Below are positions 7,919 to 64,000 of a stretch of DNA of 64,000 bases, one piece after another (within the stretch, counting starts at the first letter, position 1; each line of letters starts with the position of its first letter). The notes under the pieces were generated by a model, which was not told the origin of the DNA, ran no database searches, and saw nothing but the letters and a program-made list of their open reading frames with translations. This stretch comes from Belliella pelovolcani. GTDB lineage: Bacteria > Bacteroidota > Bacteroidia > Cytophagales > Cyclobacteriaceae. The stretch spans positions 372,001 to 436,000 of the forward strand of contig NZ_FTOP01000001.1 of assembly GCF_900156785.1 (NCBI RefSeq). Reading direction: 5' to 3'. The translations under genes were made by a program, and so were the position numbers.

Positions 7919-7940
7919 GAAGAAATTAATCTAATATCTC

Positions 7941-8708
7941 TTATTTTAAAGCATCGTAGCGCTCCGCCACGGCATCCCAATTGACCAAATTCCACCAGTT
8001 GCCGATGTAACCTGCTCTATCACTGGTATACTTCAAATAGTAAGCGTGCTCCCATACATCTATCCCCATCAATGGGATGCCTTGGAAATCTGATACATCC
8101 ATCAATGGATTATCTTGATTGGGTGTTGAGCCTACCGCTAGTTTTTTATCTGCATCTAAAACCAACCAAGCCCAGCCGGAGCCAAATCGGGTTTTTCCTG
8201 CATTCTCAAATTGTGTTGCGAAATCTGCAAAACTTCCAAAGGACGCATTGATAGCATCTGAAAGATCTCCAGTTGGCTCACCACCACCGTTTGGTGACAT
8301 GATCTTCCAAAAAAGCTCGTGGTTATAATGTCCCCCACCATTATTCCGCATTTTGGTAGAATATTTAGAAATATTCATCAATACTTCCTCTAGAGGAGCA
8401 CTCACATCTACACCCTCTTCAGCGGCTGCCTCTCCAAGATTTTTTGCATAAGCTGCTGCATGCTTTGTATAATGAATCTCCATGGTCATGGCATCAATAT
8501 GTGGCTCTAGTGCAGTATAATCATAAGGCAATGGCGTCTGTTCAAATCCAGTTCGTAAAATCACTCCGCCCTCTTCTGTAGATCCCCCACCACAGGCCGT
8601 CAAGAAAGCAGAGCCTATCATAGATGACCCTATGCCAATTGCAAGCGTGGCCTTTGAAGTTCTTGAAATAAAATACCTCCTGGATACTTTAAAATTTGAG
8701 TTTTTCAT
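7941..8708 (-). CDS. Exported Fe/Mn superoxide dismutase lipoprotein
   Basis: A 255-residue Fe/Mn-type superoxide dismutase that converts superoxide to peroxide and oxygen. The metal ligands are in place: His in MEIHYTKH, His in GGGHYNHELFW, and Asp and His in GIDVWEHAYYLKY; the active-site Tyr follows in AAAYAKN. PNQDNPL resembles the Mn-type glutamine region. Unusually for the family it carries an export signal: a twin-arginine-like SRRYFIS near residue 10, a hydrophobic stretch, and a lipobox-like FLTAC followed by GGGS. This suggests Tat export and lipid anchoring outside the cytoplasm. It is monocistronic and divergent from dapF. Confidence 0.88.
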   Translation of the reverse strand: MKNSNFKVSRRYFISRTSKATLAIGIGSSMIGSAFLTACGGGSTEEGGVILRTGFEQTPLPYDYTALEPHIDAMTMEIHYTKHAAAYAKNLGEAAAEEGVDVSAPLEEVLMNISKYSTKMRNNGGGHYNHELFWKIMSPNGGGEPTGDLSDAINASFGSFADFATQFENAGKTRFGSGWAWLVLDADKKLAVGSTPNQDNPLMDVSDFQGIPLMGIDVWEHAYYLKYTSDRAGYIGNWWNLVNWDAVAERYDALK

Positions 8709-55982: not shown

Positions 55983-58388
55983 TTAAAATTCAATGATAAT
56001 TCCAATGGTGGGCAATACAGTTCCAGCTGTGCTTCTGACCGATCTAATCAAGTACCTATTGGTATCATTGGGGTCAACATTGATGCCACCCTCTGGATTC
56101 CTGTTGGGAATCAATTCATCTGGTTGTTGTGCTTTGAAATTGTATGCGTTTTGTACATCAAAGTACCAGTTGAGATTCCACTTGTCGAAGAAATACTTTT
56201 TGTCAATTCTCAAATCCAGCTGATGAAAAGAATCTAAGCGTTGACCATTGATATTATTAAAATCCAATATTCCTCCTCCTCTCAAGTCCCAATTGCTTCT
56301 CAATGTAGAGGCCTGTATGTCGAATGGCGTATACGGCGCACCGCCTAAGAACCTCCATCTTCCTCCTATTTCCCAGTTCTTTCCGAATCTTTTACCTGCA
56401 GTCATGGTCACTATGAATCTATTGTCCCAAGAAGAAGGAATGAAGCCGTCTGTATTTGGATTGGTAAATTCACTTCTCACCAAGGTCACTGCTGCAATGC
56501 CATAAAAATTATTGAATAGACGCTGCTGAGCTAGAAACTCTATTCCATAAGCTCTTCCTTCAGCATTGGAAGCTACTGGTTCATTGCCTATCACTCCAAA
56601 ATCAGCTCCTAAATTTGCCAGGGCAATGCCATTTCTGATGGAGGTTGGATAGTTATTGTAGTGCTTGTAAAATGCTTCAATTGTAAATCTCCTGTTTTTC
56701 TCGGGTAAAACTCTTTCGATTCCAGTGATCAGTTGACTTGACCTGATGAATCTGATATCATTTAGCTGATTGACCAATTCTCCCTCATTATTTCTAAACC
56801 CAAGAGCTGTGTAAGGTGGTTTTTGGTAATAAATCCCTCCATTGGCTGTCCAAAATAGATTGGGTTTAAATTGATAAGAAACAGAAAGTCTAGGACTGAT
56901 CTGATTCAGGGGGTTTTGAGCTGTGAGTCCAAAATCACTTCCATCCATTCTCACCCCACCAGAAAGTAAGAGCCTCTCATCCTTAAAGGTTTTAGTTCCC
57001 GAAACAAAAGCTCCATAGCTATTAAAAAAAGCTGTATTGTTAATATTGATGATGCCCCCATCCTGCGAAAGTGAAGCCCTGTCAAAATTATTGATCAGGT
57101 ATCTAGCAAATTCGTAATTGACGCCATATTTCAAGCTATAACCTTTACCGAAAATGCTGTTCTCTGCTCTAAACTTGTTTTCACTTTCCTGAGAAGTGTA
57201 GTCAAAGAGTAAGTTTGCCGCATCACTTTCGTCGTTATTGAGATATTTGTAGGCTTCATTGTTAAGCATATTCCTACTGAGAATAAAAGTCCAAAAGCCG
57301 TTTTGTCTGTATCTTTTCAGTTTAGCTCCAGTAGCATAATTCCATTGAGATGAAATCGGCAAATTGTCTAGTCTAAAAAGGCGCTCCTCTCTTTCTTCTT
57401 CTGTTTCATTATTTGGAACATCGAAGTTCAAGGCAAATTGATCAATGGCACCGACACCAATCAAGGTCAACTCTGTCTTGTCATTAAATTTTGTAGTTGT
57501 TTTGAATTGAAAGTCATTGAATGTAGGTAAAAATGGCAAACCCAAAAGCCTGAACAACCCTTGTAAGTAAGACCTTCGAGCAGATACAAGGTATGTGGTT
57601 TTTTCGCCTAAAGGCCCTTCATTAGAAAGCGTAAGTTCGCTTGCTCCTACTGTTAGTTGGGTAAACATTTTATCTCTTCGGCCCTCTTTGAGCTCAAATT
57701 CAAAAAATGAACTGAGTGCATTCATTCGGTTGGCTGGAAATCCACCAGTAACTACCTCTACATTTTTGATAAGGTTTACATTGAGGATGCCTACAGGGCC
57801 GCCAGAAGAACCCTGAGTAGCAAAGTGATTGATCACAGGAACTTCAATTTCGTCTATGAAGAATTTGTTTTCATTTGGAGCTCCACCTCTAATGATGATA
57901 TCATTTCTGAAGCTAGCAGTACTCGCTACTCCTGGAAGGGATTGAATTACCCTGCTGATATCTCTATTGCCTCCAGGGTATCTTTCTATTTCGTTGGCAT
58001 TCAATCTTCGGACAGAAAGTGGGGTTTCATCTGACCTGGAAAACTCCGAACTGACCACTACTTCATTCAAGTCCGAGGCTTCTTCTTCTAATTCAAAATC
58101 CAACTGGACGGCACGTGCACGCGTTACTTGGACTTCGAAAATAGTTTTGGACTTGAAGCCTACGAAGCTAGCCCTGACATTATATAATCCAGGATTAATT
58201 CCTTCAATCCTATATTTACCATTTTCATCTGAGACAGTGCCGATTTCAGTGCCTGTTATGACAATATTAGCAAATGGAACAGGTTCATTATTTACAGGAT
58301 TTTTGACTGTACCTTGGATGATTCCACCTTGTCCGTATAAGTTTGAAGAAATAAATAAAAAGCAGATAATCGAGTATATAAGTTTCAT
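55983..58388 (-). CDS. TonB-dependent receptor downstream of crtW
   Basis: An 801-residue receptor: signal peptide (SSNLYGQGG), carboxypeptidase-regulatory-like domain (about 22-110; GTVKNPVNNEPVPFANIVI), plug (PGGNRDISRVIQSLPGVAST, IIIRGGAPNENKFFIDEIEVP) and barrel ending PTIGIIIEF. There is no STN domain and no SusD partner. It starts 53 nt after the crtW stop without a clear terminator between, so it may be read through from the carotenoid operon. Ligand unknown. Confidence 0.85.
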   Translation of the reverse strand: MKLIYSIICFLFISSNLYGQGGIIQGTVKNPVNNEPVPFANIVITGTEIGTVSDENGKYRIEGINPGLYNVRASFVGFKSKTIFEVQVTRARAVQLDFELEEEASDLNEVVVSSEFSRSDETPLSVRRLNANEIERYPGGNRDISRVIQSLPGVASTASFRNDIIIRGGAPNENKFFIDEIEVPVINHFATQGSSGGPVGILNVNLIKNVEVVTGGFPANRMNALSSFFEFELKEGRRDKMFTQLTVGASELTLSNEGPLGEKTTYLVSARRSYLQGLFRLLGLPFLPTFNDFQFKTTTKFNDKTELTLIGVGAIDQFALNFDVPNNETEEEREERLFRLDNLPISSQWNYATGAKLKRYRQNGFWTFILSRNMLNNEAYKYLNNDESDAANLLFDYTSQESENKFRAENSIFGKGYSLKYGVNYEFARYLINNFDRASLSQDGGIININNTAFFNSYGAFVSGTKTFKDERLLLSGGVRMDGSDFGLTAQNPLNQISPRLSVSYQFKPNLFWTANGGIYYQKPPYTALGFRNNEGELVNQLNDIRFIRSSQLITGIERVLPEKNRRFTIEAFYKHYNNYPTSIRNGIALANLGADFGVIGNEPVASNAEGRAYGIEFLAQQRLFNNFYGIAAVTLVRSEFTNPNTDGFIPSSWDNRFIVTMTAGKRFGKNWEIGGRWRFLGGAPYTPFDIQASTLRSNWDLRGGGILDFNNINGQRLDSFHQLDLRIDKKYFFDKWNLNWYFDVQNAYNFKAQQPDELIPNRNPEGGINVDPNDTNRYLIRSVRSTAGTVLPTIGIIIEF

Positions 58389-58441: not shown

Positions 58442-59167
58442 TTACTGGTTTTTTTCTGTGAGTTGGAGATTCTCCTCTTTGACTTGCCACAATCTCCACC
58501 ATGGAGTGCCTGGAGAATCATGATGCTCGAAGTGATATCCGAAAAAATAACAGGTCACAAAAGCCCATAAATGATTCTTTTCTTGCGTATGCGAATGATG
58601 CACATTGTCAGATTCACCCATGTGTGGTCTGTATGTTCCAAAATAAAATAGCTGCAAGGTGGCCAAAATCGCCGGTAGCATCCAAAATACAATTAGGTTT
58701 TCAGTGGGAAGAAAAAGTTTGAGGATATTGAACGTCACAGCCATAAGCAAAATTTGCCATATGGTAACGTATTGCCTGATAAAGCTCAAATACCAAATGA
58801 AGAAATTTCCAGAAGCATGGTAATCTGGGTCTTTGTCAGTAGCGACGTATCGGTGATGTTCGTGATGCTTCGGAAAAAGCTTCCAATAAAAGTTATAAGA
58901 AAATAATATGGCACTTAACCAACCAAATGCATGATTGACTCTCTTATTCCTTGATACCAAGCCATGCATCGCATCATGGGCAGTGATAAAAAGCCCCGTG
59001 TACAAATGGGTCTGAATCAAAATACCCAAATAGGTGAGCGGATTCGTCCAGTTCAATTCAAAAAAAAGCAATATGACTAGGGAAATAGCCCACAAAATGA
59101 TGATTAAAGAGGCGATGATAATTCCCTTGGGATCTATATCAGATGTATGATTGATGAATTTAGGCAC
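58442..59167 (-). CDS. crtW: Beta-carotene ketolase CrtW-like
   Basis: A 241-residue membrane di-iron oxygenase. The His motifs HDAMH (64-68), HHEHH (101-105), the FYFGTYRPH segment, and FGYHFEHHDSPGTPWWRLW near the C-terminus follow CrtW beta-carotene 4-ketolases rather than CrtZ hydroxylases or acyl desaturases. CrtW adds keto groups at C4, needed for flexixanthin, canthaxanthin or astaxanthin. It follows ispH by 24 nt in the carotenoid run. Neither lycopene cyclase nor CrtZ lies in the window, so other steps must be encoded elsewhere. Confidence 0.82.
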   Translation of the reverse strand: MPKFINHTSDIDPKGIIIASLIIILWAISLVILLFFELNWTNPLTYLGILIQTHLYTGLFITAHDAMHGLVSRNKRVNHAFGWLSAILFSYNFYWKLFPKHHEHHRYVATDKDPDYHASGNFFIWYLSFIRQYVTIWQILLMAVTFNILKLFLPTENLIVFWMLPAILATLQLFYFGTYRPHMGESDNVHHSHTQEKNHLWAFVTCYFFGYHFEHHDSPGTPWWRLWQVKEENLQLTEKNQ

Positions 59168-59191
59168 AAATAAAGGTAAGCAGAATCTTGG

Positions 59192-60037
59192 TTAGAAAGT
59201 ATCCAATTTTGCTTTTACTTGCTCCATCAGCCACATGGGTGTAGAAGTGGCGCCGCAGATACCAACCGTGTCATTAGGCGAAAACCAAGTTGGACATACT
59301 TGATCTTGATTGGAAACAAAGTAAGTGTTAGGATTCTTTTCTTTACATACATTATAAAGCACCTTCCCATTGGAAGACTTGGTTCCACTGACGAAGACGA
59401 TTTTATCAAACTTCTCGGCAAAAGCTCTCAGTTCTTTGTCCCTATTCGAAACTTGGCGACAAATGGTGTCATTGGTATTGACTGTGATGCCATTGTCTTT
59501 CAGTATTTCATTGATTTCGTAGAACTTATCAGTGCTTTTCGTAGTCTGACTGTAAAGTGTCAAATTTTTTGGCAGAGACTCAATGTCTAATTCTGAAATA
59601 TCCTGAAAAACTACCGCTTTGTTGTTGGTTTGTCCCAGTAAGCCTACTACCTCGGCATGACCGTGCTTCCCGTAGATATAAATAGTTTCTTCTTTATCGA
59701 AAGAATTCTTGATCCTATTCTGAAGTTTCAATACGACAGGGCAACTGGCGTCTATAAGCGTTAAGTTATTTTTGATAGATAGTTCGTAGGTAGACGGTGG
59801 CTCACCGTGAGCTCTAATCAAAACTTTTTCATTGACCAAGTCATGTAATTCATCATGATTGATGATTTTGAGACCTTTGGCTGTTAGCCTATTTACCTCT
59901 TCGTCATTGTGAACGATATCTCCAAGACAATACAGATAACCCTGCTCATCGAGGATTTCTTCTGCCATTTCAATAGCATACACCACTCCAAAACAAAAAC
60001 CTGAGTGTTGATCTATATGTACTTGAAGATTCATCAT
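59192..60037 (-). CDS. ispH: 4-hydroxy-3-methylbut-2-enyl diphosphate reductase
   Basis: A 281-residue iron-sulfur enzyme of the last MEP-pathway step, giving IPP and DMAPP. The three cluster cysteines are C15 (GFCFGV), C99 (DASCPVV) and C193 (TICRQVSNRD, the ATTNRQ-equivalent, here QVSNRD). SGTKSSNGK near 225 is also typical. Start MM at 60037/60034. It lies between crtB (106-nt gap) and crtW (24 nt), so precursor supply is encoded with the pigment genes; the larger gap may hold its own promoter. Confidence 0.92.
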   Translation of the reverse strand: MMNLQVHIDQHSGFCFGVVYAIEMAEEILDEQGYLYCLGDIVHNDEEVNRLTAKGLKIINHDELHDLVNEKVLIRAHGEPPSTYELSIKNNLTLIDASCPVVLKLQNRIKNSFDKEETIYIYGKHGHAEVVGLLGQTNNKAVVFQDISELDIESLPKNLTLYSQTTKSTDKFYEINEILKDNGITVNTNDTICRQVSNRDKELRAFAEKFDKIVFVSGTKSSNGKVLYNVCKEKNPNTYFVSNQDQVCPTWFSPNDTVGICGATSTPMWLMEQVKAKLDTF

Positions 60038-60143
60038 AGGCTATTAACTTAAAGCTTGTTCAAATGTTTCGATGGATTATATCAGTGTTCTGTTAATTAA
60101 TTCGATCTTTATTGATAATTCTATAAGAAAGAAAAAAACTCCC

Positions 60144-60989
60144 TTAAGCCCAACCAAGCTTCATACCGAAGTAAGTGCCGAGCAATAGTGAAAGTTTTCT
60201 AGCATTTGGAATTCTGATTCTTTGTTGTGTGATGGTTTCAGGAGGCAAAGCTTTGATTTTATCGAAGAGCTTTTGATAATAGAGATAAGCTACTTTTACA
60301 CCCATTTTTGCACCAGATGGGAGCTGATTGATTCCAATCAAAGCTTCATCAAAATCTTTTTGTATATCCTCTTCGATCATCTCTTTGGCAGACTTATCAA
60401 AAGTCATGAAGTCCACACCTGGAAAATAGACTCTCCCTCGCTCTTCATAATCACTCTTGATATCTCTCAGGAAGTTTACCTTTTGAAATGCTGCGCCCAA
60501 CTTACAGGCTGGATCTTTTAACCTCTGATATTTTGCTTCGTCCCCTTCGCAGAATACTTTCAAACACATCAGACCAACAACCTCAGCAGAACCATAGATA
60601 TATTCGTGGTACTTGGAATCATTGTAAGTTTTGAAGTCCAAATCCATTTCCATGCTATGGAGAAATGCTTCAATCAAATCCCTATCAATATTATACTGGT
60701 TGACAATTATTTGAAATGCATGCAGCACTGGATTGAGACTAATTTTTTCACTGATCGCTTTGTAAGTATCCTGCTTGAATAATTCCAACAAGGATTTTTT
60801 GTCCTGATCGTGAAATGTATCTACAATTTCGTCTGCATATCTGACAAACCCATAAATAGCATATATAGGCATATGGTACTTCTTATCGAGTGTTTTGATA
60901 CCCAAAGTAAAGCTTGTGCTGTACCGTTGTGTAATCAGCCGACTACACTCGAAGGTGGTTTGGTCAAAAAGCGCTTTTGCATCCATCAT
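60144..60989 (-). CDS. crtB: Phytoene synthase
   Basis: A 281-residue trans-isoprenyl diphosphate synthase-fold enzyme that condenses two GGPP to phytoene. The first Asp-rich motif is YADEIVD (52-57) and the second NFLRDIKSDYEERGRVYFP, typical of CrtB rather than squalene synthase. It starts 19 nt after crtI, in the order crtI-crtB usual for Bacteroidota. MM at 60989/60986 leaves the start ambiguous by one codon. Confidence 0.9.
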   Translation of the reverse strand: MMDAKALFDQTTFECSRLITQRYSTSFTLGIKTLDKKYHMPIYAIYGFVRYADEIVDTFHDQDKKSLLELFKQDTYKAISEKISLNPVLHAFQIIVNQYNIDRDLIEAFLHSMEMDLDFKTYNDSKYHEYIYGSAEVVGLMCLKVFCEGDEAKYQRLKDPACKLGAAFQKVNFLRDIKSDYEERGRVYFPGVDFMTFDKSAKEMIEEDIQKDFDEALIGINQLPSGAKMGVKVAYLYYQKLFDKIKALPPETITQQRIRIPNARKLSLLLGTYFGMKLGWA

Positions 60990-61008
60990 GGATAATATAC
61001 CATTTTAT

Positions 61009-62490
61009 TTACAAATTGTTTTCTTTCATCACCTCTTTGGCCACAACATGTCCAGAGATCAAGGAAGGTGGAACGCCTGGACCTGGTACTGTCAGTTGAC
61101 CTGTGTAATAGAGGTTCTTAACTTTCTTGTTTTTCAATGAAGGCTTCAATATAGCAGTTTGTAACAAAGTATTCGCAAGACCATATGCATTTCCTTTAAA
61201 TGCATGATAATCAGACTTGAAATCTTTGTGGGCATAGGATCGCTTATATACCACATGGCTTCTTACTTCTTGTCCTGTGAGCCGCTCAAGTCGGTCCATG
61301 ATAATATTATAATATTTCTCTCTCATCTCTTCAGTATCTTCCAAATCTGGAGCTAAAGGAACTAGTAGAAAAAGGTTTTCCATTCCCTCAGGAGCTACAG
61401 TAGGATCGGTCTTTGAAGGAACTGAAGCATAAAACAATGGTTTCTCAGGCCATCTTGGATTGGTATAGATGGCATCCGCATGAGGCCCTAGAGGTTCATC
61501 AAAAAAAAGATTATGATGACGAAGGTTATCAAGCTTTTTATTTACCCCTAGGTAGAAAAGCAAGCTACCCGGAGCCATCACACGTTTATCCCAATATTTT
61601 TCATCGTAGTTTCTGTAAGCAGGCTCTAATACTTTTTGATCGATATGATTATAATCAGCACCAGCCACGACCACATCTGCGTCAAACTTTCTTCCATCTT
61701 TGGTAAATACAGCCTTTGCAATGCCATTTTGAATGCCTATGGAAGTCACCTCAGCATCATAATGGAATTTCACACCTTTTTCCTCAGCCAGCTTCACCAT
61801 ACCTTCTATGATCTTGTGCATACCGCCATCCGGATACCAAGTTCCTAATGCGATATCAGCATAATTCATCAAGGAGTAAAGTGCAGGTATATTTTGTGCT
61901 GTTTCCCCTAAGAACAAAACTGGGAACTCCATAAGGCGGATGATTTTGTCTTCCTTGAAAAACTTGCGGACATGCTTGGACATGGATTGGAAAATATCCA
62001 TTCTAATCATGTCTAATAAAAGACCAGGACTTGTGAATTCAAAAATTGAGCGACTTGGTCTATATACCAAATCTTTTATTCCAACTTCATATTTATAAGC
62101 TGCCTGCTTCAAAAACTCATCTAGTTTAGGGCCAACTCCTGGTTCTATTGTCTCTAACAGGGATCTGAATGCAGCAAGATTCGCAGGAATATCCATAAAA
62201 TCATTGTCACCAAATACTACCGTGTAAGAAGGATCCAACCTGATGAGATCGTAGTAGTCCGAGGGCTTCTTGCCAAAATGTCCAAAATAAGTTTCAAAAA
62301 CATCTGGCATCCAATACCAACTAGGACCCATATCAAAAACAAAACCCTCGGCTTCGAACTTTCTGGCTCTACCACCGGGGGTACTGTTTTTCTCAAGGAG
62401 TGATACATTATAACCTTGATTTGCAAGGTGTGTGGCGGCTGAGAGTCCAGCAAAACCAGACCCTATGACCACTACATTTTTTATTGACAT
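61009..62490 (-). CDS. crtI: Phytoene desaturase
   Basis: A 493-residue FAD-dependent CrtI-type desaturase converting phytoene to lycopene. The N-terminal dinucleotide fold is VVVIGSGFAGLSAATHLA (8-25) with PGGRARKFE, the DMGPSWYWMPDVFE segment follows, and the C-terminal signature is NLYYTGQLTVPGPGVPPSLI (split) ending SGHVVAKEV. It starts 4 nt after the sigma-factor stop, so the regulator and the enzyme are translated from one message. Confidence 0.93.
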   Translation of the reverse strand: MSIKNVVVIGSGFAGLSAATHLANQGYNVSLLEKNSTPGGRARKFEAEGFVFDMGPSWYWMPDVFETYFGHFGKKPSDYYDLIRLDPSYTVVFGDNDFMDIPANLAAFRSLLETIEPGVGPKLDEFLKQAAYKYEVGIKDLVYRPSRSIFEFTSPGLLLDMIRMDIFQSMSKHVRKFFKEDKIIRLMEFPVLFLGETAQNIPALYSLMNYADIALGTWYPDGGMHKIIEGMVKLAEEKGVKFHYDAEVTSIGIQNGIAKAVFTKDGRKFDADVVVAGADYNHIDQKVLEPAYRNYDEKYWDKRVMAPGSLLFYLGVNKKLDNLRHHNLFFDEPLGPHADAIYTNPRWPEKPLFYASVPSKTDPTVAPEGMENLFLLVPLAPDLEDTEEMREKYYNIIMDRLERLTGQEVRSHVVYKRSYAHKDFKSDYHAFKGNAYGLANTLLQTAILKPSLKNKKVKNLYYTGQLTVPGPGVPPSLISGHVVAKEVMKENNL

Positions 62491-62494
62491 ATGC

Positions 62495-63007
62495 TTAATT
62501 TTTGTGTCTGTACACGTGAAGATCGTCTTTTAAAATCTTTCTGGCAATATGTATTCTATTTTTTACTGTTCCGATTGGAATCTCAAGTTTTTCGGCTATT
62601 TCGTGATATTTAAAACCACGGTAATGCATCATAAAAGGAGTTTTGTAGACATCATCTAGGTTTTCGATGGCTTCATAGATATCGTCCATTGCAAAATCTC
62701 CATAGGCTCCATTTTCAACCAGAACATCACCTGAATTGATGTAGTGTAAGTTATCAGTAGTATCAACAAAAGTACCCCTTCTTACCATTCTTTGATAATT
62801 GGTAATGAAGGTGTTTTTCATAATCGTATACAACCAAGCCTTCAAGTTAGTACCCTCAGTAAATTTGTCTCTGTTTGTGAAGGCCTTCACCATCGTGTCT
62901 TGCATCAAGTCGTTTGCATCATCCATATCTCTGGTCAATTTCAAAGCAAATGGCTTCAAAGAGCTAGAGAGCTTGTTTAGTGAGTAACTGAATTCTAGAG
63001 TTGTCAT
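62495..63007 (-). CDS. ECF RNA polymerase sigma factor in crt operon
   Basis: A 170-residue sigma-70 family ECF factor. Region 2 spans about 10-80 (DMDDANDLMQDTMVKAF, NLKAWLYTIMKNTFI) and region 4 about 115-165 (FMMHYRGFKYHEIAEKLEIPIGTVKNRIHIARKIL as a split helix-turn-helix). The ATG at 63007 (MTTLEFSY) is preferred to 63031, because the -7 element lies at 63029-63036. No anti-sigma gene is adjacent. It is the first gene of the carotenoid operon, so it may direct its own operon or further light- or stress-response genes. Confidence 0.9.
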   Translation of the reverse strand: MTTLEFSYSLNKLSSSLKPFALKLTRDMDDANDLMQDTMVKAFTNRDKFTEGTNLKAWLYTIMKNTFITNYQRMVRRGTFVDTTDNLHYINSGDVLVENGAYGDFAMDDIYEAIENLDDVYKTPFMMHYRGFKYHEIAEKLEIPIGTVKNRIHIARKILKDDLHVYRHKN

Positions 63008-63028
63008 GGCTTTTTGTTTTTGTTGAAT

Positions 63029-63059
63029 CAAATATATAAATGATTAAACAAACTCCAAA
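63029..63059 (-). promoter_or_regulatory. Promoter of the sigma/crt operon
   Basis: On the reverse strand TTTG (63056-63059) is followed after exactly 19 nt by TATATTTG (63029-63036), a perfect TTTG-N19-TAnnTTTG Bacteroidota promoter. Transcription would start about 15 nt before the sigma-factor ATG. Confidence 0.75.
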
Positions 63060-63099
63060 ACATTTTGTGGAATATTTTTTATTTTTTGTTAAACAAAAA
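63044..63099. promoter_or_regulatory. Candidate CarH/LitR operator cluster
   Basis: Three elements overlap or flank the promoter. A near-perfect inverted repeat CCAAAACATTTTGTGG (63055-63070) covers the -33 box. A perfect palindrome TTTTTGTTAAACAAAAA (63083-63099) lies upstream. The half-site TTAAACAAA is shared by that palindrome (63089-63097) and by the spacer between -33 and -7 (63044-63052), 45 bp apart. Binding by the adjacent MerR-B12 regulator is inferred. Confidence 0.5.
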
Positions 63100-63177
63100 G
63101 CCTAGTACTCATAACATAGAATTAATATACTCCTCAAAATCGCCTTTTTAAGTGTATATACATGCTTTTTAATAAAA

Positions 63178-63199
63178 AAACAGACCTGAAGGTCTGTTT
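63178..63199 (-). terminator. Intrinsic terminator of the carH-like gene
   Basis: AAACAGACC and GGTCTGTTT form a 9-bp stem with a TGAA/TTCA tetraloop, followed on the reverse strand by a run of T. It lies 22 nt beyond the regulator stop, so the sigma/crt operon needs its own promoter. Confidence 0.8.
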
Positions 63200-63221
63200 A
63201 ACTTTTTTTGTTAATGTTTAA

Positions 63222-64000
63222 TTATTTTTCTTGAGATATCAATTCCATCTCTTCTATATACTCTTTGATCTCTCGGATGTAATTCATGGTTTTGACATTT
63301 TTCGGGAATCTCAAGTCTTGACCGATGATCTGGTAGCCTGACAAGATTATTTCAGACTCTTGATACATAGAGGCAAGGTTATCAATATACTCTTGTACCT
63401 GCTCAGCACTAGGTGCTGTAGTGATTACAGTCATCAGGTAATCCGGCTTGTGCATCTTATACACCAATTCCAAATCAGCCCTTGGCGTACTTTGACCCAA
63501 ATAGATTACTTTATGTCCTTTCAACTTGATCAAATAGGCAGCAAACAACAAAGAGATTTCATGTAGTTCACCTTCAGGCAAGAATAGTAAAAACTTTTTG
63601 CCTCCACCTTTATAAACTTGACCATCTATGGCAACGATAAGCTTTTGTCTAACCAAGTTACTGATGAAGTGTTCTTGTGCAGGGTTGATCGCCCCGGTCT
63701 GCCATAGTACACCTATCTTGGACATGAATGGATAGACAATGTTTAACATCGTCTGTTCAAAGCCAATTTTTAGGATGTTTGTAGAAAGCACTTTATCAAA
63801 TCGCTCCTCTTCCATTTCGATCATAGAAATAGTAAGCGCATGAATCTGATCATCGTGGGTAAGTGTTCGCTCTGTAAGTTTTACTACCTCTTCACGAATT
63901 TCAGCAATATCCATTTTAGCAATCTTACTGATTTTATAGCCATTGTCATTGAGTAGGGCTACATTCAGGATCAGCTTCAAATCATCATCATCGTAATACC
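63222..64000 (-). CDS. CarH/LitR-type MerR B12 photoreceptor, 5' end cut
   Basis: The frame extends past the right edge; the visible part starts YYDDDDLKLILNVALLNDNGYKISKIA, the second half of a MerR winged-helix DNA-binding domain. The helical B12-cap domain contains LWQTGAINPAQEHF (codons 63669-63704), an exact W-x9-EH motif that marks CarH/LitR light sensors. The Rossmann-like B12 domain follows, with GELHEI (the His that ligates cobalt from below) and VIYLGQSTPRADLE. In known cases the dark AdoCbl-bound tetramer represses carotenoid genes and light breaks it up. It lies directly upstream of the sigma/crt operon, with its own terminator between. Confidence 0.88.
   Translation of the reverse strand, partial: YYDDDDLKLILNVALLNDNGYKISKIAKMDIAEIREEVVKLTERTLTHDDQIHALTISMIEMEEERFDKVLSTNILKIGFEQTMLNIVYPFMSKIGVLWQTGAINPAQEHFISNLVRQKLIVAIDGQVYKGGGKKFLLFLPEGELHEISLLFAAYLIKLKGHKVIYLGQSTPRADLELVYKMHKPDYLMTVITTAPSAEQVQEYIDNLASMYQESEIILSGYQIIGQDLRFPKNVKTMNYIREIKEYIEEMELISQEK

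Follow-up and report, generated by a model that had tools for sequence, protein, structure and literature searches.

The closest described relatives of the regulator discussed here are CarH proteins, whose published operators are tandem 11-bp direct repeats of the form nnnnTnnACAn, as far as the available text of PMC9304148 and PMC8156234 goes. Inverted repeats were once proposed for CarA of Myxococcus xanthus and later read as direct repeats, and in Thermus CarH one head-to-tail dimer contacts repeats DR1 and DR3 (available text of PMC9304148). For flavobacteria, the accessible part of a study of Dokdonia sp. PRO95 (PMC3587595) states that proteorhodopsin regulation needs further work. Here we describe a CarH-type regulator gene (carH) and the adjoining carotenoid (crt) genes at the right end of a 64,000-nucleotide stretch of Belliella pelovolcani (Bacteroidota), referred to as the window; it covers bases 372001-436000 of contig 30 in a 4.1-Mb genome assembled in 44 contigs. 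Between carH and a gene for an extracytoplasmic function (ECF) sigma factor we found two copies of a 30-bp inverted repeat that recurs before sigma factor, rhodopsin and pterin genes of relatives. The comparisons make it probable that a light regulon governed by adenosylcobalamin (AdoCbl)-bound CarH is widespread in Bacteroidia and joins genes for carotenoids, retinal, proteorhodopsin and pterins, with the ECF sigma factor as a second tier.

The CarH-type regulator and its gene cluster

The sequence-only reading of the window had placed a light-responsive regulator, an ECF sigma factor and crtI-crtB-ispH-crtW in one run. The positions that it gave for the crt genes all hold, and the genes follow one another in this order on the minus strand:

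63222-64124, minus strand: carH, complete, 300 aa (the window holds 63222-64000; L002:5223-6125)
62495-63007, minus strand: ECF sigma factor, 170 aa (Pfam Sigma70_r2 and r4_2)
61009-62490, minus strand: crtI, CrtID-type phytoene desaturase (NF058655, 762.6 bits, cut-off 640)
60144-60989, minus strand: crtB, phytoene synthase (PF00494, SQS_PSY, 2.4e-45, and synteny)
59192-60037, minus strand: ispH (NF002187, 351.9 bits, cut-off 276)
58442-59167, minus strand: crtW-like beta-carotene ketolase (NF045690, 232 bits, below the cut-off of 350)

Extension of the contig past the window edge supplied the N-terminus of the regulator, which was missing from that reading. The 300-residue protein has a MerR DNA-binding domain at residues 6-71 (Pfam MerR_1, PF13411, 3e-16) and thus the MerR helix. 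It is followed by B12-binding_2 (PF02607) at 95-162, above the Pfam cut-off, and by B12-binding (PF02310) at 183-264, which at 22.7 bits stays below the cut-off of 32.1. The top sequence matches in the PDB are structures of Thermus thermophilus CarH (TtCarH): 3whp (E 2.5e-20) and 5c8d (E 3.1e-20). The latter is also the best Foldseek match (E 3e-14, 288 columns, TM about 0.6) of an AlphaFold2 model with pLDDT 85.7 and pTM 0.70; the root-mean-square deviation of 9.5 Å indicates that the relative placement of the domains differs. Both signatures noticed earlier, W-x9-EH and GELHE, are present as W141-x9-E151-H152 and G185-E-L-H188-E.

We compared the protein with its homologues (E 1e-20 or better) in an order-level sample of 59 genomes, the source genome included. 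A CarH homologue occurs in 51 of the 59, and 52 carH loci from these 51 genomes were compared. W141, E151, H152 and the lower-ligand histidine H188 are unchanged in 52/52 loci, and in the recognition helix H20, T21 and R23 are identical in all 50 aligned loci (E, V and R in TtCarH). Domain content, key residues, the predicted fold and deep synteny thus give good support for assigning the window regulator as a CarH-type protein. A response to light and B12 is predicted. The genome has just one more PF02607 protein, a 901-aa frame on contig C43, which is probably methionine synthase. A Cob_adeno_trans family gene (ATP:cobalamin adenosyltransferase) is present in 54 of the 59 genomes, the source genome among them, so AdoCbl could be made there from imported cobalamin.

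Downstream of carH, the sigma gene or crtI lies on the same strand in 38 of the 52 loci, in a few of them several kb off, and neither is found within the stretch fetched in the other 14; at L080 and L082-L085, crtI-crtB follows carH directly. The recurrence of the carH-sigma-crtI order in many of these loci argues that the arrangement is not due to chance, and the earlier claim of a CarH-type regulator and ECF sigma factor ahead of the crt genes stands. In the window the sigma stop and the crtI ATG are separated by 4 nt, again as claimed. For the sigma gene we preferred the ATG at 63007 (170 aa) over the listed TTG at 63031. CrtI matches the NCBIfam model 'bifunctional phytoene desaturase/3,4-desaturase' (CrtID) above its cut-off, and every NCBIfam match of CrtB is under its cut-off. 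Just upstream of carH, on the same strand, lie crtZ and cruF; the CrtZ-like hydroxylase has the Pfam domain FA_hydroxylase and no NCBIfam match, and the NCBIfam scores of the CruF-like protein are under the cut-offs. After crtW there is a TonB-dependent receptor-like gene (window 55983-58388), whose position is kept in many close relatives.

Two close relatives that were examined (L036, L043) have an extra gene between crtB and ispH, a CarR-domain lycopene cyclase in L036, and several further relatives have the same crtB-ispH gap of about 720 bases. The window genome lacks the extra gene and encodes its CrtY in the rhodopsin operon described below; a shared operator would hold the crt operon and the rhodopsin-crtY operon in step.

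A conserved inverted repeat and its predicted targets

The 214-bp gap between carH and the sigma gene includes a terminator hairpin and two copies, about 44 bp apart, of the predicted 30-bp operator TGTTTAA-N16-TTAAACA:

63169-63204, minus strand: predicted terminator hairpin and T-run after carH (fold -11.5 kcal/mol, z -4.8, 0/200 shuffles as good)
63066-63095, no strand assigned: O1, TGTTTAA-N16-TTAAACA with 2 mismatches; same place in 12/12 close relatives (1 or 2 mismatches)
63056-63059, minus strand: -33 box TTTG in the promoter of the sigma gene, which is of the Bacteroidota housekeeping type, from sequence
63029-63036, minus strand: -7 box TATATTTG in the O2 spacer; TAnnTTTG in 12/12 close relatives (alignment)
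63021-63050, no strand assigned: O2, TGTTTAA-N16-TTAAACA with 1 mismatch, enclosing the -7 box; 12/12 close relatives (0 or 1 mismatch)

In the alignment of this intergenic region over the 12 close relatives, blocks such as TTTGTTTAAY and RTTAAACAAA are kept. A scan of the window itself at the two-mismatch level is not significant (3 found, 0.98 expected), and the case for the operator therefore rests on conservation. We scanned the last 400 bases of 38 carH-to-target intergenic stretches for the two half-sites at varying distance: N16 gave 27 perfect matches, N17 gave 4 and N26 gave 1, where dinucleotide shuffles yielded about 0. With a site defined as N16 or N17 with at most one mismatch, or two if one half is perfect, 36 of the 38 stretches have a site and 29 have two or more. 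The last two sites are 42-45 bp apart in 22 of these 29 and 63-64 bp in 3, close to four or six helical turns; the remaining four spacings are 32, 74, 107 and 122 bp.

The half-sites keep the TnnACA core of CarH operators, inverted and about 24 bp apart centre to centre. The constancy of N16 over many diverged genomes points to a true inverted repeat rather than a misread direct repeat. The tandem arrangement typical of the CarH proteins studied was not seen: no TnnACA pair 9-13 bp apart occurs on either strand of the window's own carH-sigma intergenic region, and base frequencies around 95 perfect sites from relatives do not point to another TnnACA at 11 bp from a half-site; beyond the half-sites the flanks are T-rich and A-rich. 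The fixed recognition-helix residues H20, T21 and R23 and the equally fixed half-site suggest one helix for one half-site, which counts for binding by CarH.

The promoter of the sigma gene reads TTTG-N19-TATATTTG, its boxes assigned by what we take to be the Bacteroidota housekeeping consensus, and its -7 box falls within O2. Among the 36 perfect sites that were assigned to sigma genes in relatives, 12 show the same geometry, TTG 19-21 bases before TAnnTTTG, with TAnnTTTG sitting 14 (11 sites) or 15 (1 site) bases into the repeat. Among the remaining 24 are O1-type copies that lie upstream and sites with a different promoter geometry; the geometry of the 12 occurs at 0/11 rhodopsin and 1/14 PTPS sites. 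By eye, 10 of 12 close relatives retain a hairpin after carH whose letters have changed. Two further elements lie nearby. A weak operator-like site with two mismatches (63195-63224) overlaps the carH stop, and some relatives have weak sites near there. Between terminator and O1 there is a perfect palindrome, TGTATATACA (63153-63162), found once in the window where 0.03 copies are expected; several members of the genus and G009 share it, and it is perhaps a site for a further regulator.

We then searched the source genome for the repeat at N16 spacing. Two-mismatch matches number 37, compared with 62 for a reversed-pattern control, and are therefore noise, so that only sites with 0-1 mismatch were used genome-wide. 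A one-mismatch site on contig C20 overlaps a long reading frame and was dropped. Exactly two perfect sites occur. One lies 83 bp upstream of the ATG of a rhodopsin gene (PF01036, 147.7 bits); next come crtY (lycopene cyclase by Pfam, below NCBIfam cut-offs) and blh, a Brp/Blh-family beta-carotene dioxygenase. The helix-C residues D, T and E stand in RYVDWTLTVPLMCVEFY, which we read as the D-T-E motif of proton-pumping proteorhodopsin. The rhodopsin is thus a predicted proton pump, and the predicted operon combines the pump with retinal synthesis. The other perfect site lies 29 bp upstream of PTPS, followed by GTP cyclohydrolase I (folE), an SDR gene, two small proteins (L101:7461-7910 and 7929-8222, the 149-aa one without a Pfam or NCBIfam match) and a flavin reductase-like protein.

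Perfect sites occur in 44 of the 59 order-level genomes, 96 in total compared with 6 for the reversed pattern. For the 95 of them covered by target annotation, the nearest gene is a sigma gene in 36 cases, PTPS in 12, rhodopsin in 11, crtI-like in 5, flavin reductase in 2, carH in 2, and SDR and TonB in 1 each. Sites also precede sigma genes in genomes where carH lies elsewhere, with crtI behind the sigma gene in G025, G040, G042, G044 and G050. Four of the perfect sites without a target label have fasciclin-domain genes behind them, in four genomes (L120, L124, L178, L182), and a TetR-type regulator (TetR_C_23, L159:1555-2220) directly behind one, with similar-looking open reading frames at L080, L123 and L125. 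Of 24 rhodopsin genes in the order-level relatives, 18 have an upstream site, compared with 0.02 in shuffles (420 bp, at most one mismatch); this count leaves out L134 (G010), whose contig ends 53 bases upstream, and L157, the second fragment of a split gene in G019. The first part of that gene (L155), interrupted by a stop codon, still has a perfect operator upstream.

Presence of the site follows presence of CarH. In the 59-genome sample, 42 of 51 CarH-positive and 2 of 8 CarH-negative genomes have a perfect site. In a class-level sample of 198 Bacteroidia genomes, CarH is found in 118 and a perfect site in 100: in 92 of the 118 CarH-positive and 8 of the 80 CarH-negative genomes (168 versus 8 sites), the reversed pattern giving 18 matches in total. 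We annotated 33 of these 176 sites (28 loci), and 22 stand at sigma, carH, crtI, PTPS, folE, rhodopsin or crtZ genes; among the four annotated sites (of 8) in CarH-negative genomes, none does. A site at N16 or N17 with at most one mismatch precedes 13 of 29 rhodopsin genes examined at class level. CarH homologues occur in 37/37 genomes with a rhodopsin above cut-off and in 81 of the 161 others, figures uncorrected for phylogeny and habitat. Finally, among 80 carH loci of named genomes, which overlap the earlier sample in genera and in at least one genome, the site lies between carH and sigma in 41/41 loci with sigma within 700 bp and at 1 of the 39 others (L256, where the contig ends about 300 bases past carH); for two of these 39 (L270, L329) sigma lies at a greater distance and the sequence immediately ahead of it fell outside the scan.

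Proposed regulation and competing explanations

In our model, the regulator is a photoreceptor and repressor of CarH type that depends on AdoCbl. In the dark, a CarH oligomer would bind O1 and O2, with their four TnnACA half-sites spaced by about two helical turns, and cover the promoter of the sigma-crtI-crtB unit. Light would break the Co-C bond, the CarH complex would leave the DNA and transcription would start. DR1 and DR3 of Thermus are 22 bp apart, so a dimer of similar reach might fit the repeat with one DNA-binding domain turned round. The proteorhodopsin-crtY-blh and PTPS-folE-SDR operons would answer to the same repressor through the same repeat. With that repeat before three operons, light would jointly induce the synthesis and cyclization of lycopene, cleavage to retinal, the proton pump and pterin synthesis.

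The light-made sigma factor may in turn drive ispH-crtW and also cruF-crtZ-carH, through which the repressor would be made anew. A candidate promoter lies just before ispH:

60044-60068, minus strand: candidate ECF-type promoter AACA-N16-GTTAA (9/12 close relatives, 0.12 expected; post hoc motif)

In the non-coding alignment upstream of cruF, AACA and GTTxA are kept in the 12 close relatives and little else is. AACA-N15..17-GTTWA, which resembles ECF promoters, occurs before cruF in 11/12 and before ispH in 9/12 of them (0.12 expected each), and before eight other locus genes in 0 or 1 of 10-12. In distant loci it precedes cruF or ispH in 4/19 only, crtZ in 2/11 and sigma in 5/11, where operator half-sites can mimic it. 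The motif was found and counted in the same alignments, and the second tier is therefore put forward as a hypothesis only: ispH and crtW may form a unit of their own under the sigma factor instead of ending a single operon, and carH, if itself a sigma target, would close a reset loop. The earlier inclusion of ispH in the run thus holds for position and strand and may not hold for transcription as one unit.

Several observations weigh against this model. The repeat is inverted, whereas the CarH operators studied are tandem direct repeats, an arrangement that we did not treat as defining for CarH. Residue 142 is Q in 40 of 52 loci, the window protein included, at the position of H132 in TtCarH, which we take to be the light-state ligand and did not treat as defining. 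The protein scores 95 bits against NF052513, the NCBIfam CarH equivalog, short of the cut-off of 400; this indicates a distant subfamily, and we therefore file the protein as CarH-type rather than as a CarH equivalog. Among the 95 perfect sites, 25 have no target label, though 4 of them precede cryptochrome/photolyase-family genes (L114, L183, L189, L191). No perfect site was found in 26 of the 118 CarH-positive Bacteroidia genomes, and the Fisher statistics for co-occurrence ignore phylogeny. Six of the 24 rhodopsin genes in relatives lack a site within one mismatch (the second gene of G028 and those of G020, G001, G042, G016 and G043; G001 and G042 have sites with two mismatches, and G043 has no CarH homologue), as do 16 of 29 class-level rhodopsin upstreams, so that the site before rhodopsin is common and far from universal. 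In addition, proteorhodopsin expression in the flavobacterium Dokdonia sp. PRO95 is described as constitutive in the accessible part of PMC3587595.

The inverted symmetry, unlike that of studied CarH operators, might mean that CarH acts on the local crt genes only, via another site, and that the repeat serves some other dimeric regulator, linked to light or redox and co-inherited with CarH. TetR-type regulators beside some sites (L159 by Pfam, the others by appearance) would be candidates, but they lie directly behind the sites, as expected of targets. The site, moreover, tracks the presence of carH and sits between carH and sigma in all 41 named loci with a close sigma gene, and the intergenic region of the window offers CarH no tandem TnnACA pair instead; we regard this explanation as unlikely. 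It might also be argued that the ECF sigma factor reads the repeats as promoters, since their half-sites share letters with AACA-N16-GTTWA, found before sigma in 5/11 distant loci. However, the two-fold symmetry and the constant N16 spacing speak for a protein that binds as a dimer, sites are present at L080, L082, L083 and L085, where the gene after carH is crtI and no sigma gene intervenes, and O2 overlaps a housekeeping-type promoter (TTG-N19-TAnnTTTG), which together make this idea very improbable. In our assessment, then, CarH quite probably binds the inverted repeat, and CarH as its binder is also the economical reading.

A different question is whether such a repressor would need B12. 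M. xanthus CarA keeps the B12 motif and needs no B12 (available text of PMC8156234), and a CarA-like protein released by another signal would also fit the lack of histidine at the H132 position. Against it stand the invariance of W, E, H and the lower histidine in 52/52 loci and the adenosyltransferase family gene in 54/59 genomes, the window's own included. The genes of the locus all belong to other families, leaving no antirepressor candidate beside carH (none was searched for elsewhere), and a B12-independent repressor seems quite unlikely. We consider it likely that in many Bacteroidota a B12 photoreceptor directly represses proteorhodopsin in the dark via the inverted-repeat operator, and that proton pumping, retinal, carotenoid and pterin/cryptochrome functions form one regulon under light and B12, with the ECF sigma factor as its second tier.

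Comparison with described systems

Neither a link between CarH and rhodopsin nor a CarH operator from Bacteroidota was found in the literature searched, most subscription papers being outside its coverage. The kind of photoreceptor is known; the operator architecture and the regulon, as predicted, would be new. If correct, they would give control of Bacteroidota proteorhodopsin a named candidate regulator, CarH, with a testable DNA site, predict that rhodopsin phototrophy depends on cobalamin supply, and suggest a new operator code for B12-based light switches.

Within the Bacteroidota, strain GF1 carries, upstream of crt genes, a gene of the MerR type that encodes a B12 domain (PMC6974559), and in Chryseobacterium lacus light induces crt genes, with no car or lit operon genes reported (PMC7064467); the available parts of the two accounts do not mention an operator, a sigma tier or a link to rhodopsin. 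Pseudomonas class II LitR proteins (PplR1, PmlR2) are similar in having spaced half-sites, T(G/A)TACA-N12-TGTA(C/T)A, and light genes that include phrB, folE and cryB (PMC9758184). They differ in half-site and spacing, and of the B12 domain class II proteins retain the helix-bundle part alone; a LOV protein brings about the release of PmlR2, and rhodopsin is not among the genes named in the accessible text of that paper.

M. xanthus CarA/CarH with CarQ-CarR-CarS resembles the present locus in using a B12-domain repressor and an ECF sigma factor in light-induced carotenogenesis. The M. xanthus sigma factor CarQ pairs with the anti-sigma factor CarR; no carQRS-type anti-sigma gene lies beside the ECF sigma gene here, the genes from crtW to cruF all being assigned to other families. 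In M. xanthus the CarH and CarQRS pathways are separate, according to the available text of PMC8156234 and PMC9304148, whereas for the present locus we predict that the repressor controls the sigma gene itself.

The closest likeness in protein and half-site is to CarH of T. thermophilus and Bacillus megaterium (class I LitR), the former compared by sequence and the latter only via the available text of PMC8156234 and PMC9304148. Shared features are the MerR DNA-binding domain, four-helix bundle, Rossmann B12 domain, W-x9-EH, lower histidine, crt target and TnnACA half-site core. Thermus CarH has H132 and E-V in the recognition helix, compared with Q and H-T here. The tandem 11-bp direct repeats of the Thermus and Bacillus operators are replaced by a pair of 30-bp inverted repeats and, unlike in those two systems, the predicted targets include the ECF sigma gene and the rhodopsin and pterin operons.

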